DNA of 64,000 nucleotides from an uncultured archaeon (GTDB lineage Archaea; Halobacteriota; Methanosarcinia; Methanosarcinales; Methanoperedenaceae): positions 1 through 64,000 of the forward strand of contig CABMIH010000065.1 of NCBI GenBank assembly GCA_902386205.1. Direction: 5' to 3'. The notes under the pieces were generated by a model, which worked only from the letters and a program-made list of their open reading frames with translations, did not search any database and had not been told where the DNA came from. Positions 44,718 to 51,300 of this stretch are shown here, piece by piece. Each line of letters starts with the position of its first letter. The first letter of the stretch is position 1. Position numbers and translations under genes: made by a program.

Positions 44718-45140
44718 TTATCCCGTGCCATCAACAATAATGCGCCCTTTAGGCATTCCAGGATGTAGAGAGCAATTGTATTCAAAAATTCCAGCTTTAT
44801 TAAAAGTATAATTCCATGTATCCCTTTTATTCAAGGGTGGAGAACTGGTATTATCTACATGGATAACATAGGTTGCGCTGTCCATATTCTTCCATCTCAC
44901 TGTCGTGCCGTTGATTACCTTCAATTCTGGATTATCAAACATCGATCCTTTTATTTCAACATAGACTGTTGAATTCTCCAGCACCTTGATTACCTGGGCA
45001 TCGTTTGTCTTAATCTCTGTCTTATTCACTGTCGCATTTGTCATTTGTTCCGGTTTGCGGGAAAGTTCATAGATATAGGCAAATATAGAAAATACCATGG
45101 CCAGAATTACGATCAATGCAATTAATTTGAATACCTTCAT
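44718..45140 (-). CDS. membrane-anchored cupredoxin (plastocyanin-like)
   Basis: 140 residues: signal/anchor (LIALIVILAMVFSIFAYIYEL) and a cupredoxin domain from about 50. Type 1 copper ligands are in place: His in ATYVIHVDN, then Cys-His-Met in YNCSLHPGMPKG. Mononuclear blue copper protein acting outside the membrane, probably in electron transfer to or from c-type cytochromes such as the triheme protein at 50.3 kb. Confidence 0.88.
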   Translation of the reverse strand: MKVFKLIALIVILAMVFSIFAYIYELSRKPEQMTNATVNKTEIKTNDAQVIKVLENSTVYVEIKGSMFDNPELKVINGTTVRWKNMDSATYVIHVDNTSSPPLNKRDTWNYTFNKAGIFEYNCSLHPGMPKGRIIVDGTG

Positions 45141-45356: not shown

Positions 45357-45459
45357 CGTCATTCTGATGCAGCAAGATTGGGAAAAAGATTTAATATCTA
45401 TGGAATGGTGTTTCTGTACCTGGTGGTAAAAATTCAAAAAATTCGCATAGGTGAGACAA

Positions 45460-45990
45460 ATGACAGACTTTAGATCCAGGGTAGAAGGGGACAGGGGATT
45501 ATTAAAAAAGATCGAACTGTTCATCCCGGGTTTTAAGGGATACCGCAAGCGTGAGGACATAAGGGCAGCGGACAGCCTGCTCAGGCAGCAGCTTGCAAAC
45601 AGGCTTGGGGAAGTAAATAAGATATTCGAAAATTGCAGGGAAGAACTCGTACGGGCCACGGAGTTATCACTTATTTCAGATGCAGGCGATATACTGAAGT
45701 CCGGAAGGAATATTGAAAATAAGATCCGTCATGCTGAGCAGGGTTATTCCGGGATATCCGCAGATATCAGGATAGAAGAAGAGGAGATCAATAAAATATA
45801 CGAATGGGACCTTGCACTTCTTCAAACAATAGAATCCCTCGGGAAACTGGCAGACGACCTTAACGTCTCGATCACCGGGAAAGATGGTACGGCTGCCCAG
45901 AAAATAAGGAACATAAGGAAAGCTCTTAATGATTTTAACTCAACTTTTGATAAAAGAATAGCTATAATTTCAGGACTGGAGGTAAGCTAA
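45460..45990 (+). CDS. PspA-position helical protein of the SPFH/zinc-ribbon module
   Basis: 176 residues from ATG 45460, with AGGTGA (45449-45454) as ribosome site; the GTG at 45451 is inside it. Opens IELFIPGFKGYRKREDIRAADSLLRQQLANRLGEVNKIFENCREEL and is a helical, coiled-coil protein (GRNIENKIRHAEQGYSGISADIRIEEEEINKIYEWDLAL). Similar 180-residue FIPGYxGY proteins sit next to SPFH/zinc-ribbon genes in other genomes. Stop and next start overlap by one base. May replace PspA (YdjF) of the Bacillus operon in the module. Confidence 0.7.
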   Translation: MTDFRSRVEGDRGLLKKIELFIPGFKGYRKREDIRAADSLLRQQLANRLGEVNKIFENCREELVRATELSLISDAGDILKSGRNIENKIRHAEQGYSGISADIRIEEEEINKIYEWDLALLQTIESLGKLADDLNVSITGKDGTAAQKIRNIRKALNDFNSTFDKRIAIISGLEVS

Positions 45991-47168
45991 TGATATTTGA
46001 TAAGAAAACGCCAACGACACAGGGTTCTGGAGGAAGCTTTTCAGGCGCTACCACTTTCATGTGGGATGATGCAGCCAAGGGCGAAAAAGTGATGTACAGG
46101 ATTCCCAGGAACATCATCTGGAATGATAATGTCGTGGTCAGGGAAGATGAATACGCGGTTTTTTTCAGGGACGGGAAAGTGCTTACCGTGCTTGACAGGG
46201 CAGGACGGTTCGGGTTATCATCACTTAACATACCTGTACTTACAGAATTGCAAAGAAAGATCACAGGTACGCAGCCTGTTGCTGAGGTCTATTACCTCCA
46301 GCGCAGGGAACTCCAGGGGAAATTCGGCACTACCGAGGCATTGACATTCAGGGACCAGGATTTTGGAATGATAAGGCTTCGTATTTTTGGACAGTTTGCA
46401 TACAAAGTTGTTAATCCCATACAGTTCATAACGCAGTTTGTCGGCACAAGCGGCTTTAGCGAAAGCGACCAGGTCGTAAGCTGGTTAAAAGAAGCGATCA
46501 TAATGCAGCTTAACGACGCCCTTGGTGAACTCAAGAAAAAAAGCCAGGTTTCAGCCCTGGATCTGCCTGCATACCTGGATGAACTCGGTGAGATACTTCT
46601 TTCAAAATCAGAGTCCAAAGTGGCTGAATACGGCCTCAAGGTCATGCGCATCGTTGGTCTCAACATTAACTTTCCGGAAGATGTGCAAAAGGCCATAGAT
46701 ACACGCTCAGGCATCGGGGCTCTCGGCCTTTCCGACCAGAAGCAAAAAGAAGCATTCATGGCGTTCCAGGCAGGAAATGCCATGAGGGACGCCGCCAAAC
46801 AGGAAGGCGGTGCTGCCGGGGCCGGAGCGGGTGCAGGCGTGGGGATAGGCGCGGGGATGGGTCTTGGGATGATGATGGCTTCCCAGTTGGGCCAGACCAT
46901 GCAGCAGCCGCAGCAGGCCGCGCGCACTCCGGGGATCAAATGTCCTTCATGCGGTTCTGATGTTCCATCAGGTTCAAAGTTCTGCACCAACTGCGGCGGC
47001 AAAATCGGCGGGGGCACACCGTGCCCGAAATGCAAAGCCGATGTTCCTTCAGGCTCAAAGTTCTGCCCCGCATGCGGAACAAAGATCGCCACGAACTGTC
47101 CCAAGTGCAATGCAGAGCTCCAGCCCGGAGCAAAGTTCTGTCCGAGCTGCGGCGAGAAGATAGAATAG
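45990..47168 (+). CDS. SPFH/Band-7 protein with three double zinc ribbons (YdjI-like)
   Basis: 392 residues. The SPFH-like domain (about 30-250) includes EDEYAVFFRDGKVLTVLDRAGRFGLSSLN, FRDQDFGMIRLRIFGQFAYKVVNPIQFITQFVG and FPEDVQKAIDTRSGIGALG; then a Gly/Ala-rich hinge (GAAGAGAGAGVGIGAGMGLG) and three zinc ribbons with six CxxC knuckles (CPSC/CTNC, CPKC/CPAC, CPKC/CPSC). This is the layout of Bacillus YdjI (virion-core-like). SPFH proteins form membrane-associated oligomers. Not itself clearly membrane-spanning. Confidence 0.9.
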   Translation: MIFDKKTPTTQGSGGSFSGATTFMWDDAAKGEKVMYRIPRNIIWNDNVVVREDEYAVFFRDGKVLTVLDRAGRFGLSSLNIPVLTELQRKITGTQPVAEVYYLQRRELQGKFGTTEALTFRDQDFGMIRLRIFGQFAYKVVNPIQFITQFVGTSGFSESDQVVSWLKEAIIMQLNDALGELKKKSQVSALDLPAYLDELGEILLSKSESKVAEYGLKVMRIVGLNINFPEDVQKAIDTRSGIGALGLSDQKQKEAFMAFQAGNAMRDAAKQEGGAAGAGAGAGVGIGAGMGLGMMMASQLGQTMQQPQQAARTPGIKCPSCGSDVPSGSKFCTNCGGKIGGGTPCPKCKADVPSGSKFCPACGTKIATNCPKCNAELQPGAKFCPSCGEKIE

Positions 47169-47178
47169 AGGTTTCCAC

Positions 47179-47928
47179 ATGGAAATAAAGTGTCCCCAGT
47201 GCGGCGCAGGCGTAAAGGCGATTGAAGGACAGACGTTCCTGACGTGCGAATACTGCTCTTCTGCCATCTACGTGGATAAAAGCAAGGTCGTATTCCACTA
47301 CATGCTGAATCCCACTCTTGACCAGGCGGGCGCCGGGGCGTCGCTTCGTCGCTGGATGGCAGGAAGCACGACAGTAAAAGGCCTTGATAAGGAAGCGCGG
47401 ATAACAAAAACAGAATTCATCTACTTTCCAGTATGGTATTTCAAGGTCAAACAGGGCGGGAACGAAGCTGTCAGGATCCAGCCCGCATCCCCGTCTCCCA
47501 TACCTGAATTAAAGAATTTGCCTATCCCTGCAGGGGACCTGCGGTTCTTTAACCAGGCAGATGCCGGAAATCCTGCAATAAAGGAGCCGCACATCCTCTA
47601 CACATCAGCGCTTGAATGTCTCAAAAGCGAGGGAGTAGATGTATCAACAATTACCCAGAGCTCACTTGTGCATATCCCGCTGTATATTTTCAATTATGAA
47701 TACAAGAACAATACTTACAATGCCATTGTGGATGGTTCGTCAAGCAAGGTGATGACCGCTGAATTTCCCTCAAAACATGAAATGCCATATTTGATCGTTG
47801 GCGGAGGAGCGACGATCCTGTTCTTTTTTGAGGGAATATCGCTGGAATTTCCCGAAGTATTGGGCGTATATGCGATAACTGCAATAATAGTGACCATAGC
47901 GGCCGTATTTGTCGCCGAGAAGGTGTGA
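47179..47928 (+). CDS. zinc-ribbon membrane protein (module member)
   Basis: 249 residues: TFIIB-type zinc ribbon at the N-terminus (CPQCGAGVKAIEGQTFLTCEYC), a middle domain (ITKTEFIYFPVWYFKVKQGGNEAVRIQPASPSPIPELKNL) and one or two C-terminal helices (YLIVGGGATILFFFEG, AITAIIVTIAAVFVAEKV). The IYFPVWYF motif recurs in the two following genes. YdjG-like; stop overlaps the next start by 4 nt. Confidence 0.8.
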   Translation: MEIKCPQCGAGVKAIEGQTFLTCEYCSSAIYVDKSKVVFHYMLNPTLDQAGAGASLRRWMAGSTTVKGLDKEARITKTEFIYFPVWYFKVKQGGNEAVRIQPASPSPIPELKNLPIPAGDLRFFNQADAGNPAIKEPHILYTSALECLKSEGVDVSTITQSSLVHIPLYIFNYEYKNNTYNAIVDGSSSKVMTAEFPSKHEMPYLIVGGGATILFFFEGISLEFPEVLGVYAITAIIVTIAAVFVAEKV

Positions 47929-48986
47929 AAATGGCGCAGGAACAACCTGAAATAATTAAGGGGCTCATGTGCCCGGGCTGCGGCGGGGCTGTTGAACTCA
48001 GGGAAGGAATTAATGTATTGAAATGCCCTTACTGCGAAACTTCGCTGCTTGTAATGGGAGACGAGGGAGTGCTACAGTATCATGTCAGCAGTAAAATAAA
48101 ACGTGAAGAAGCAAAGGCCGTAACACTAAAGTGGCTTGGCGGATTTGATAAGGACAGGAAGCTAAAAACCGGGGCGGAGTTCACGGAGATTTTCCTTGTG
48201 CATTTGCCTTTCTGGCGGTCAACTGGAAAAGTCTGCGGCTGGGTGTTCGGCAACAAGATACATCATGAGACACATCGGGACAGCAGGGGAAATGTCACCA
48301 CCACAACACGGAAGGAACCTGTGGAGCGCATGGTAATGCAGGATTATTTATGGAACAGGGCTGCATGCGACGTATCCGAATTCGGGGTCGAAGAACTGGA
48401 CAATTCAGGCATCATGGGGAACCTTGAACCCTTTGATTTCCAGAATGTGGAAAAACAGGGAATGATATTTGAGCCCACCCATTCAAGAACGGATGCCGCC
48501 AGGGAATCCGAGAAATGGATGCTGGAGAAAGCCAAAAGGAGCGTGGATGTGGATGAAGTGATATTCCAGAAATTGCAGTCCATAGGCACGAGACTATCGG
48601 TGGTCTATTATCCTTTGTGGATCCTCAGGTACAGGTTCAAAGAACGGAACTACCAGGTAGTGGTTGATGGTATTCACAATAAACTGCTCTACGGCAGGGC
48701 TCCGGGCAGCACCCTGTACAGGGTGAGCATGTTCATAGGGAGTCTTCTTATCGGGAACCTCCTGCTTACAACGTCGGCAAGACAATATTTCGGCGCAGGC
48801 TCAGGCGACATATTTGCCATCGGTGCACTTGCCGGGCTGGCGTTGATAGTGTTCGGGTTCGTCAAGTTCAGGTACGGCGGCGAGGTAGTGGAGGGCAGGA
48901 AATCAAAAATAAAAGGAGAGGACATCCAGGAGACTATGAACTCTTTAAAGAACGGCGATTTTAATAAAATCTTAGGGGTGAGATAA
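47925..48986 (+). CDS. zinc-ribbon membrane protein (YdjG-like)
   Basis: 353 residues: zinc ribbon CPGCGGAVELREGINVLKCPYC, a domain with EIFLVHLPFWRSTGKVCGWVFG, then VVYYPLWILRYRFKERNYQVVVDGIHNKLLYGRAPGSTLYRVSMFIGSL and two C-terminal membrane helices. Same domain order as the gene before. Stop overlaps the next start by one base. Both look like membrane-associated partners of the SPFH protein. Confidence 0.8.
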   Translation: MKMAQEQPEIIKGLMCPGCGGAVELREGINVLKCPYCETSLLVMGDEGVLQYHVSSKIKREEAKAVTLKWLGGFDKDRKLKTGAEFTEIFLVHLPFWRSTGKVCGWVFGNKIHHETHRDSRGNVTTTTRKEPVERMVMQDYLWNRAACDVSEFGVEELDNSGIMGNLEPFDFQNVEKQGMIFEPTHSRTDAARESEKWMLEKAKRSVDVDEVIFQKLQSIGTRLSVVYYPLWILRYRFKERNYQVVVDGIHNKLLYGRAPGSTLYRVSMFIGSLLIGNLLLTTSARQYFGAGSGDIFAIGALAGLALIVFGFVKFRYGGEVVEGRKSKIKGEDIQETMNSLKNGDFNKILGVR

Positions 48987-49612
48987 TGACGCAGGCTTCG
49001 GGGCTTCGGCTGGTGGCATTGAAATGCAAGAAATGCGGTTCACTGCTTGATGCTGACCCGAAAGATGTGGTTTATTATTGCAACAATTGCGGTACGGGTT
49101 ATGAGCTTATCAATGAAAAAGACGAGCTTGTGGCCCTGGACATAGATTTTGCGCTCCCGAAAAAAGCAGTGGACGCAGAGGTCGTATATTATCCTTTCTG
49201 GGTGTTCAATGCAAATATTAAAATAAATGAAAGGGATGCCGGAGGAACGCTGGGCAGTGTCGTTGATTTCATAAAGGGAAAGATAACAGGCGGTCCAAAG
49301 CCCATAGAAAAGTTCTATATCCCCGCATTCGAAACGCCGATGGAAAATATCAAAAAGCTCGGACTTGAATTCACAAGGAACCAGCCGGATTTTGATACTG
49401 TGAAGAAGGATAAGCTTAAAGGCTGCGTATATTCAAGCAGGGATGCTGAAAAAATCGCAGATTTCATATTCCTGAGCATGGAAGCGGAAAAACCCGATAT
49501 GCTAAAGGGTATTTCCTATACACTCGGCCTTTCATCCCCGAAAGTGATAGGGATACCGTTCTACAAGGACGGCACGGGATTTATAGACGGGATTTTCGGG
49601 ATAAAAATATAG
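48986..49612 (+). CDS. zinc-ribbon soluble protein (module member)
   Basis: 208 residues: zinc ribbon CKKCGSLLDADPKDVVYYCNNC, then VDAEVVYYPFWVFNANIKINERDAG (the shared [VI]YxPxW motif) and a C-terminal part with no membrane helix (KVIGIPFYKDGTGFIDGIFGIKI). It looks like a membrane-free member of the same family. Confidence 0.75.
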   Translation: MTQASGLRLVALKCKKCGSLLDADPKDVVYYCNNCGTGYELINEKDELVALDIDFALPKKAVDAEVVYYPFWVFNANIKINERDAGGTLGSVVDFIKGKITGGPKPIEKFYIPAFETPMENIKKLGLEFTRNQPDFDTVKKDKLKGCVYSSRDAEKIADFIFLSMEAEKPDMLKGISYTLGLSSPKVIGIPFYKDGTGFIDGIFGIKI

Positions 49613-49628
49613 AAACTCAAAGGGGAAC

Positions 49629-49946
49629 ATGAGACAATTAACAGAACTTGATAAGAAGATCCTGGCAAAACTCGCACCTGAACTTGAAGGCGTGACCGGC
49701 CCCGCGCCAGGGCATGATTTCAAGTTCATCCTCCTGCCTGTATCCCATCGTTTCTCGGAATCACCTGAGGATTTTGTGGCAAGGATAGGAAAATTGACTG
49801 ATGAAGAGCTGGATTACCTTGTCGGGCTTATTATGCGCGGGGAAGAGGATGTGCATTCGCTGGCAGAAGGGGATTTTGATGCGCTTGTTGAAGTGATGGA
49901 GAAAAGGCTTCCGGAAAAAGCGAAGGTATTAAGAAATATAACATAG
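49629..49946 (+). CDS. small protein at the end of the module
   Basis: 105 residues: LDKKILAKLAPELEGVTGPAPGHDFKFILLPVSHRFSESPEDFVARIGKLTDEELDYLVGLIMRGEEDVHSL. Acidic and helical, with no known domain. Starts 17 nt after the zinc-ribbon gene and is last of the six co-directional genes. Function unknown. Confidence 0.65.
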   Translation: MRQLTELDKKILAKLAPELEGVTGPAPGHDFKFILLPVSHRFSESPEDFVARIGKLTDEELDYLVGLIMRGEEDVHSLAEGDFDALVEVMEKRLPEKAKVLRNIT

Positions 49947-49974: not shown

Positions 49975-50292
49975 ATGAGCAAGCGCAAAATAATATTCCT
50001 GGGACTTTTGGGTGCATTGTTTTTACTTGCGGGGTTTTACTATAATAATTCATCTCTTCAATATCTCGGCTTCGGAACCCTGTTTGCGGGGCTTTTATAC
50101 TATACGCTTTTCAGGAACCATAAAGAGATAATGGCGCTGATTTTAGGTCTTGTAATACTCCATTCAGGAGTTTTACTAATTATCGAAAGAGCCTCAAATC
50201 CAAAATTGCTGGGCCTGCTGGTTTTCACAGTCGGGATTATGGTCGTGCTAAATTCCGGTTTTTCGGATTATATAAAAAAAAGGAAAAAATAA
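49975..50292 (+). CDS. small membrane protein
   Basis: 105 residues with four helices in pairs (FLGLLGALFLLAGFYYN, LGFGTLFAGLLYYTLF, ALILGLVILHSGVLLII, LLGLLVFTVGIMVVLNSGF) and a basic tail (YIKKRKK). Not recognised. It follows the module by 29 nt and could be co-transcribed; convergent with the cytochrome gene. Confidence 0.65.
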   Translation: MSKRKIIFLGLLGALFLLAGFYYNNSSLQYLGFGTLFAGLLYYTLFRNHKEIMALILGLVILHSGVLLIIERASNPKLLGLLVFTVGIMVVLNSGFSDYIKKRKK

Positions 50293-50296
50293 TATA

Positions 50297-51172
50297 TTAT
50301 TTGTCGGTTGAAACCAGTTCTTTCAAACGCTGCAGGGGTTCATGTGTCTGATGACAGTCAAAACATGCTCCTCCTATCTGTTGCATTGTATTCGATGCGC
50401 TAGTAAGATCTCCGCTTGAAATCTCTCCCTCAGCCTTGCTTACCAGTGCCATGACATCGTCGCTGACATAATATCTGCGTTCCGTATCATGACATGAAGA
50501 GCACGCATCTTTCATGTACAGGAACATCGTTTTGAATTGCTGGAAACTTTTATTGGCAGCTTCCTGCTGGTTCTCTCTTGCATTGACGATAGTCCCGTCA
50601 AAACCCGTCACCAGATATTTTGCTTTTGCTTCTGTCCAGGGAGCTTCGGGTTGTTCAGGATTTACAGTCTTCATTTTTACATCTTTCAAATCTTTCCAGT
50701 TATATTTTGCGAACACTTTGGTTTTCGTTGCCACATGGCATTTAGCGCATGTCTGGAAAACAACATCCATACTGGCCAATATCTGGTTCTTATCGCCCGC
50801 TTCAAGAGCATTTCCAACTTTATCCACAGCTTCCAGGTCATAATATCTTCTCCATTCCGGTACCATTTTTGAGCTGTTCCTATATTCATTTTTGAATATT
50901 TGATAGGAAATTTTTGCATTTGTCATATCGTCTTGCTGCGTATTTACCAAAACTCCCATCATCGGACCGCCGAGTTCATACATCCTGAATAGATATAATG
51001 GCTGTCCCCAGGGCGTCTTGGTTTCAAACCAATTATCCAGTGAATCCGGAAGTGGTATTGCCATATTTGATATTGCATTTGATCTTTCAGATTTCATCAT
51101 TTTTCCAGAGACCACCAGAAGTCCTGATATTATCAGAACTATAGCTACCGCTATTACTAACCTGTTTTTCAT
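50297..51172 (-). CDS. triheme c-type cytochrome, membrane-anchored
   Basis: 291 residues from ATG 51172, with GGAGGT about 7 bases upstream (an upstream GTG-type start at 51193 overlaps it). Signal/anchor helix at about 5-22 (LVIAVAIVLIISGLLVVSG). Three CxxCH heme sites: CAKCH at about 141, CSSCH at about 223 and CFDCH near the C-terminus (about 270). The last 25 residues are soluble (QTHEPLQRLKELVSTDK). Multiheme cytochromes are typical of Methanosarcinales and ANME archaea, where they carry electrons outside the membrane. A cupredoxin gene lies 5 kb away. Confidence 0.88.
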   Translation of the reverse strand: MKNRLVIAVAIVLIISGLLVVSGKMMKSERSNAISNMAIPLPDSLDNWFETKTPWGQPLYLFRMYELGGPMMGVLVNTQQDDMTNAKISYQIFKNEYRNSSKMVPEWRRYYDLEAVDKVGNALEAGDKNQILASMDVVFQTCAKCHVATKTKVFAKYNWKDLKDVKMKTVNPEQPEAPWTEAKAKYLVTGFDGTIVNARENQQEAANKSFQQFKTMFLYMKDACSSCHDTERRYYVSDDVMALVSKAEGEISSGDLTSASNTMQQIGGACFDCHQTHEPLQRLKELVSTDK

Positions 51173-51300
51173 TAAACTACCTCCGACTTCCAACCCAGGA
51201 AATCAGAAGCAGTCGGTGCGAATGATATATATAGGTTTCGCTGCCTGTGATTACTACCAGGAATATGTAACTGTAATAAATCACAGTGCCTGAGGCAATT

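Follow-up and report, generated by a model that had tools for sequence, protein, structure and literature searches.

A five-gene archaeal module combining an SPFH protein, zinc-ribbon membrane proteins and a helical partner

Gene content of the locus

Here, we describe a cluster of five genes, named A to E, that occupies positions 45460-49612 on the plus strand of a 64,000-nucleotide stretch of archaeal DNA (the window; contig CABMIH010000065.1 of assembly GCA_902386205.1) taken from a Methanoperedens genome bin of 2.79 Mb. The genes encode a soluble helical protein, an SPFH protein and three paralogous zinc-ribbon proteins, and together they are a conserved archaeal module of real genes that has apparently gone undescribed until now. 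No description of it was found in the literature, though subscription journals lay mostly outside the search and an earlier account is possible; the nearest published accounts are two surveys of Psp systems (PMC9239133, PMC11237479) and one of archaeal ESCRT systems (PMC10936438). The co-directional open reading frames (ORFs) lie where a first-pass annotation had placed them, but that annotation counted six genes, most of them overlapping by 1 to 4 bases. The module has five, and overlaps are found only at the A/B and D/E junctions (1 base each), with gaps of 10 bases between B and C and 16 bases between E and the following gene F. Genes C and D are separated by 2 bases when D is read from the ATG at 47931, and overlap by 4 bases only if D starts at an alternative GTG at 47925.

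Gene A (45460-45990) encodes a soluble protein of 176 amino acids that carries the motif FIPGFKGY, and its family shares the invariant pattern PGFxGYR...ED.R..D..LR.Q together with a G..G loop. Structures were predicted for A and D. The AlphaFold2 model of A (pLDDT 84.6, pTM 0.81) consists of a short N-terminal helix (residues 4-21), the PGF loop and four further helices (31-65, 69-94, 107-140, and 145-171), and A has no membrane hairpin. The protein had been annotated as a coiled coil with a FIPGxxGY motif; the motif stands, whereas the modeled short helix followed by four helices is not an extended coiled coil. The sole significant family match of A is to NCBIfam NF047596 (LIMLP_15305 family, Leptospira), at E=5.9e-18 and over nearly the full length of the protein (residues 12-169), and no Pfam match of note was found. 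All 15 aligned archaeal A proteins likewise match NF047596 and no other family. However, the A protein of the window scores 65.4 bits against an equivalog cut-off of 210 bits, so that A is homologous to NF047596 as a distant relative and not as the same equivalog. The literature found lists LIMLP_15305 solely among tabulated positions of non-coding RNAs, and the module gives a family context to this Leptospira protein family of unknown function.

Gene B (45990-47168) encodes a member of the SPFH superfamily, identified through PF13421 (Band_7_1; E=3.7e-38, 131.7 bits against a gathering threshold of 24). A Gly-rich, low-complexity stretch leads to a C-terminus of three zinc ribbons, and neither a membrane helix nor any other hydrophobic segment is seen in B. 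The SPFH assignment and the C-terminal ribbons agree with the first-pass annotation, but the ribbons are single and not double, as six CxxC pairs make up the three, and all six pairs are kept in 82 of 112 relatives.

Genes C (47179-47928, 249 amino acids), D (47931-48986, 351 amino acids) and E (48986-49612, 208 amino acids) each encode an N-terminal zinc ribbon and a YxPxW motif, just as had been annotated, with the motif-bearing domain duplicated in D in the form [YH]xPxW. The C-terminus of both C and D is a membrane hairpin, and E has no membrane segment. Family searches with the C, D and E proteins of the window gave generic ribbons only. Profile-profile comparison with hhalign identifies the three as paralogues (C-D E=1.5e-35, D-E E=3.5e-12, C-E E=7e-11). 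Two or more copies of YxPxW were counted in 72 of 82 C, 65 of 72 D and 41 of 59 E relatives, some of which are fragments at contig ends, compared to one or more copies in 38 of 801 neighboring ORFs, and the motif is not a product of chance. D also aligns half to half (hhalign E=1.9e-5, probability 77%), and YxPxW is therefore the probable signature of a duplicated domain. Sequence searches of solved structures with A, B, C/D and E matched only generic ribbons and coiled coils. Upstream of the operon, a probable promoter and leader (45380-45459, plus strand) holds a TATA-like, AT-rich TTTAATAT at 45390-45397 and, a few bases 5' of the gene A ATG, a GGTGA; both were read from the sequence alone.

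Distribution and linkage in archaea

The module occurs in 7 of 24 Methanoperedens genomes, including that of the window, and in one genome of a sister family. Genes A to E are common to these genomes and, beyond the closest relative, no other flanking gene of the window is shared. A genome-wide scan with the A alignment returned 165 relatives, and 80 loci were kept. The loci belong to Methanoperedens, Methanocorpusculum, Methanomicrobium, Methanomassiliicoccales and other Thermoplasmata, with A present in 51 of 194 Thermoplasmatota genomes. The five-gene set is conserved in two phyla of archaea, Halobacteriota and Thermoplasmatota, and among its carriers are cultured methanogens (Methanocorpusculum, Methanomicrobium).

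Gene B lies directly 3' of A in 98 of 99 nonredundant loci from the two phyla, all of which were found through A in a search that demanded A only. All five genes fall within 6 kb in 49 of the 99, and many of the others lie on short contigs. Most complete loci are ordered either A-B-C-D-E or C-D-E-(small membrane gene)-A-B, and genes C to E either adjoin the A-B pair or sit at a second locus of the same genome; lone A-B pairs in three genomes (G376, G370, and G171, at loci L047, L050, and L052) are each accompanied by a C-D-E cluster elsewhere in the genome. Co-occurrence extends this linkage. In Halobacteriota, a D-type protein was found in 21 of 22 genomes with A (21 from one search, plus G390, whose A came to light separately) but in only 4 of 371 without A (Fisher p ~8e-30, phylogeny ignored). 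Gene order is kept in other archaea, contrary to the possibility, raised alongside the first-pass annotation, that the cluster is not conserved. Directly 5' of A in 31 loci lies a family of proteins of ~115 residues, mostly with three or four predicted membrane helices and in most cases four, whose two groups are homologous (hhalign E=8e-13); the operon of the window has no such gene.

The small acidic protein that had been counted as the sixth member (gene F, 49629-49946, plus strand, 105 amino acids) is a neighbor only. Each of the 24 Methanoperedens genomes searched has F, whether the module is there or not, and so do 33 of 40 relatives, likewise irrespective of the module. In the other module-bearing species searched (L210-L212), F lies on another contig. 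This presence irrespective of the module, together with its location on other contigs, makes F a bystander, and we reject it as a member of the module. The F family extends through most of the order, and many of the genomes carry a second paralogue; F itself has no Pfam, NCBIfam or PADLOC match at useful scores.

Relation to Psp systems and a putative membrane scaffold

The first-pass annotation had compared the cluster to Bacillus ydjFGHI, with its first gene possibly in the place of PspA. We found no evidence that A is a PspA. Sequence, profile and fold tests revealed neither PspA_IM30/Snf7 similarity nor an ESCRT-III fold: A has no PF04012 (PspA) match, alignment of the A family with 30 PspA proteins of the same archaeal order gave an hhalign probability of 0.1%, and a Foldseek search of the A model against the PDB returned no match at E<=1e-3, with no PspA, Vipp1 or ESCRT-III chain among the top 50. 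A true PspA is encoded on another contig of the genome of the window (G000:C45:3182-3871, E=5.1e-23), which agrees with the report that the PspA genes of Methanoperedens BLZ2 sit in other operons (PMC9239133). Most relatives carry PspA whether or not they carry the module, and of the module-bearing genomes G011 has none; G002 has only a subthreshold match. A true Psp-type module, in which A would be a PspA or ESCRT-III protein diverged past sequence recognition, would fit the position of A as the first gene of the operon, directly 5' of the SPFH gene, and its all-helical architecture with a short N-terminal helix, as in PspA. Given the profile and fold results, the genuine PspA elsewhere and the failure of PspA occurrence to track the module, we regard such divergence as very improbable. 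At its locus, L140 (3176-4152), the true PspA of the genome of the window is followed, with a 4-base overlap, by a 92-amino-acid ORF that resembles a PspAA partner in position and size.

The remainder of the comparison to Bacillus fared better. YdjI is described as having no membrane helix, a low-complexity stretch and a C-terminal zinc finger, and its localization to the membrane, whose fluidity it affects, needs YdjG/YdjH (PMC8581546). The same features are found in B, with its Band_7_1 domain, and PF13421 also matches in B. subtilis, where the matched protein is presumably YdjI. YdjG has been described as a pair of zinc ribbons with a domain related to YpeB and a segment in the membrane (PMC11237479); C and D recall it through their ribbon and membrane hairpin, and some D-family proteins add a weak PepSY/YPEB match. 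As in Bacillus, the genes can form one compact operon. In contrast to pspA-ydjGHI, the archaeal module lacks PspA, holds three ribbon paralogues instead of one and is sometimes split in two operons; the TPM domain of YdjH was matched neither by the module proteins of the window nor among the D-family matches listed. The likeness is thus supported for B with YdjI, partial for C and D with YdjG, and unsupported for A with PspA. The core that the two systems appear to share is an SPFH protein with ribbon-membrane proteins, to which A and the extra ribbon paralogues are added, and we rate the module as a YdjGI-like core with an unrelated partner, A, in place of PspA. The module has the parts by which Bacillus recruits PspA to its membrane, yet without PspA, and the separation of the SPFH-ribbon core from PspA makes this core testable alone.

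SPFH proteins are nearly universal, and the membrane recruitment and role of the soluble ones are poorly understood. We propose, with about even confidence, that A to E form one membrane-associated complex on an SPFH scaffold, likely serving membrane protection or organization under envelope stress. What speaks for one complex is the five-gene association, with the A-B linkage, the co-occurrence of A with D-type proteins, the split loci and a D-E fusion protein, together with the paralogy of C to E and the domains of the five proteins. Like other SPFH proteins, B may build a ring or cage lining the cytoplasmic side of the membrane. B lacks a membrane helix, so partners must keep it in place, and C and D would do so through their C-terminal membrane hairpins. 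The stretch after the second helix of D is rich in Arg/Lys and the turn of its hairpin is tight in the model, from which we infer that nearly all of D should be cytoplasmic; the ribbons of C to E and the triple ribbon of B, also predicted to be cytoplasmic, may provide protein-protein contacts, and the duplicated PepSY-like domains of C to E could bind a substrate or sense a signal at the membrane surface. Near-invariant adjacency and tightly coupled translation of A and B argue for a fixed A-B complex, in which A might be a soluble helical adaptor docked on B, filling the position that an unrelated PspA has in Bacillus. The output would be membrane organization or protection when the envelope is stressed, the job that YdjI does together with YdjG and YdjH; this stress role is carried over by analogy from Bacillus, and the assembly and topology of the complex are predictions. 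At rather less than even chances, the module could be a new archaeal membrane-scaffold machine in which A serves a Band_7_1 SPFH ring as its dedicated partner, a pair that may reach into bacteria through the Leptospira-type family as a second, PspA-independent answer to the problem solved by pspA-ydjGHI.

Several observations weigh against a stress-protective scaffold. The patchy occurrence of the module within Methanoperedens means that it meets no housekeeping need, and as it lacks PspA, its link to membrane repair runs only by analogy through the SPFH and ribbon parts. The PepSY/YPEB match was found in 5 of 44 D proteins with a best E of 0.0055, under the curated cut-off, and in the two proteins where it was mapped it surrounds the second motif. 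The D model has no convincing neighbor in the PDB, where only long-hairpin matches were returned, such as pore-forming toxins (probability <=0.25, TM ~0.1); we dismiss the toxin likeness as meaningless.

The main rival is a client-holding cage resembling HflK/C or stomatin, in which B with C and D would enclose specific membrane proteins for quality control or assembly, the ribbon and PepSY-like proteins would choose or hold the client, and stress protection would be secondary. HflK/C encloses FtsH, and PepSY-like domains have ties to propeptides or to the inhibition of peptidases. The membership of B in the SPFH family and the PepSY-like domains of the module, weak as their match is, are both consistent with such a cage, as is the reported encapsulation of membrane channels by stomatin (PMC12407830). 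However, the module contains no protease or recurrent client gene and its flanks differ between lineages, and we consider this explanation unlikely. Stomatin/NfeD and flotillin loci share the SPFH superfamily with the module, but the module has no NfeD or protease partner and B has no N-terminal membrane helix; elsewhere in the genome of the window, another SPFH gene was seen by inspection to neighbor a protease/NfeD-like ORF (locus L142). The Meth_adaptin ESCRT loci (PMC10936438) also group an archaeal SPFH protein that bears a zinc ribbon with further ribbon proteins and membrane proteins, but differ in that no Vps4, ESCRT-III or adaptin gene was seen among the largest recurrent neighbor groups of the module or among the best Pfam matches obtained with 103 flanking proteins, with no dedicated search for Vps4.

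The ribbons of the C/D/E family resemble those of TFIIB, RPB12 and S27e, which would suit a transcription-regulatory module whose ribbons bind RNA polymerase or DNA and whose B protein sequesters C to E at the membrane; a regulatory role has indeed been suggested for the YdjG ribbon (PMC9239133). But ribbons this short score similarly against many families that are unrelated, no DNA-binding domain is present, and C and D have membrane hairpins, making this the least probable of the explanations weighed here.

A defense or conflict system that senses viral membrane damage would fit the patchy occurrence of the module within the genus, insertion sites that differ between species and the presence of SPFH genes near conflict genes elsewhere, such as a Vibrio plasmid SPFH gene near a TIR gene. 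Against this, the only PADLOC match of the module members is a marginal Cas12f ribbon match for E (E=0.004), the 103 neighboring proteins give few PADLOC matches, mostly generic helicase-type, and therefore do not support a defense island, and no toxin-like or nuclease domain was found. The metabolic flanks, the few generic PADLOC matches and the lack of any viral relative disfavor a defense role, which we judge quite improbable. A mobile or viral origin was likewise rejected, as A has no viral relative and none was found in plasmids. On the Vibrio coralliilyticus plasmid (L173:595-8031), a Band_7-type SPFH gene stands with an unknown downstream gene and nearby TIR-domain and TRAFs-binding-domain genes, a possible conflict-system context for bacterial relatives.

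Neighboring genes and divergent loci

The genes flanking the module vary by lineage and are mostly housekeeping or metabolic, for example enolase and glutamate synthase. In the window, they are a weakly cupredoxin-like secreted protein (44718-45140, minus strand) and a multi-heme cytochrome c'-type protein (50297-51193, minus strand), both shared at the module with the closest relative only. The small membrane gene G (49975-50292) is also found near the module only in the species of the window and its closest relative; as a counterpart of the membrane protein that precedes A at other loci it is unsupported (hhalign probability 5% and 2%).

Genomes of Methanocorpusculum type and Methanosarcinaceae type (L058, L187, and L196) carry a divergent second form of the module, in some cases beside the common one; the A protein of L058 is ~28% identical to that of the window. 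In Methanocorpusculum, D and E are also found fused in a protein of 499 amino acids (L188:5446-6945), encoded beside a C-like gene and apart from the main module, in which the D part lacks its N-terminal ribbon and the ribbon of E stands mid-protein. Two genomes, G208 and G286, of one other Halobacteriota family encode four to five D-like proteins (287-447 amino acids) in tandem, with no A or B nearby (L185:5040-9921 and L186:4733-12278), and a third, G189, appears similar among the search matches.

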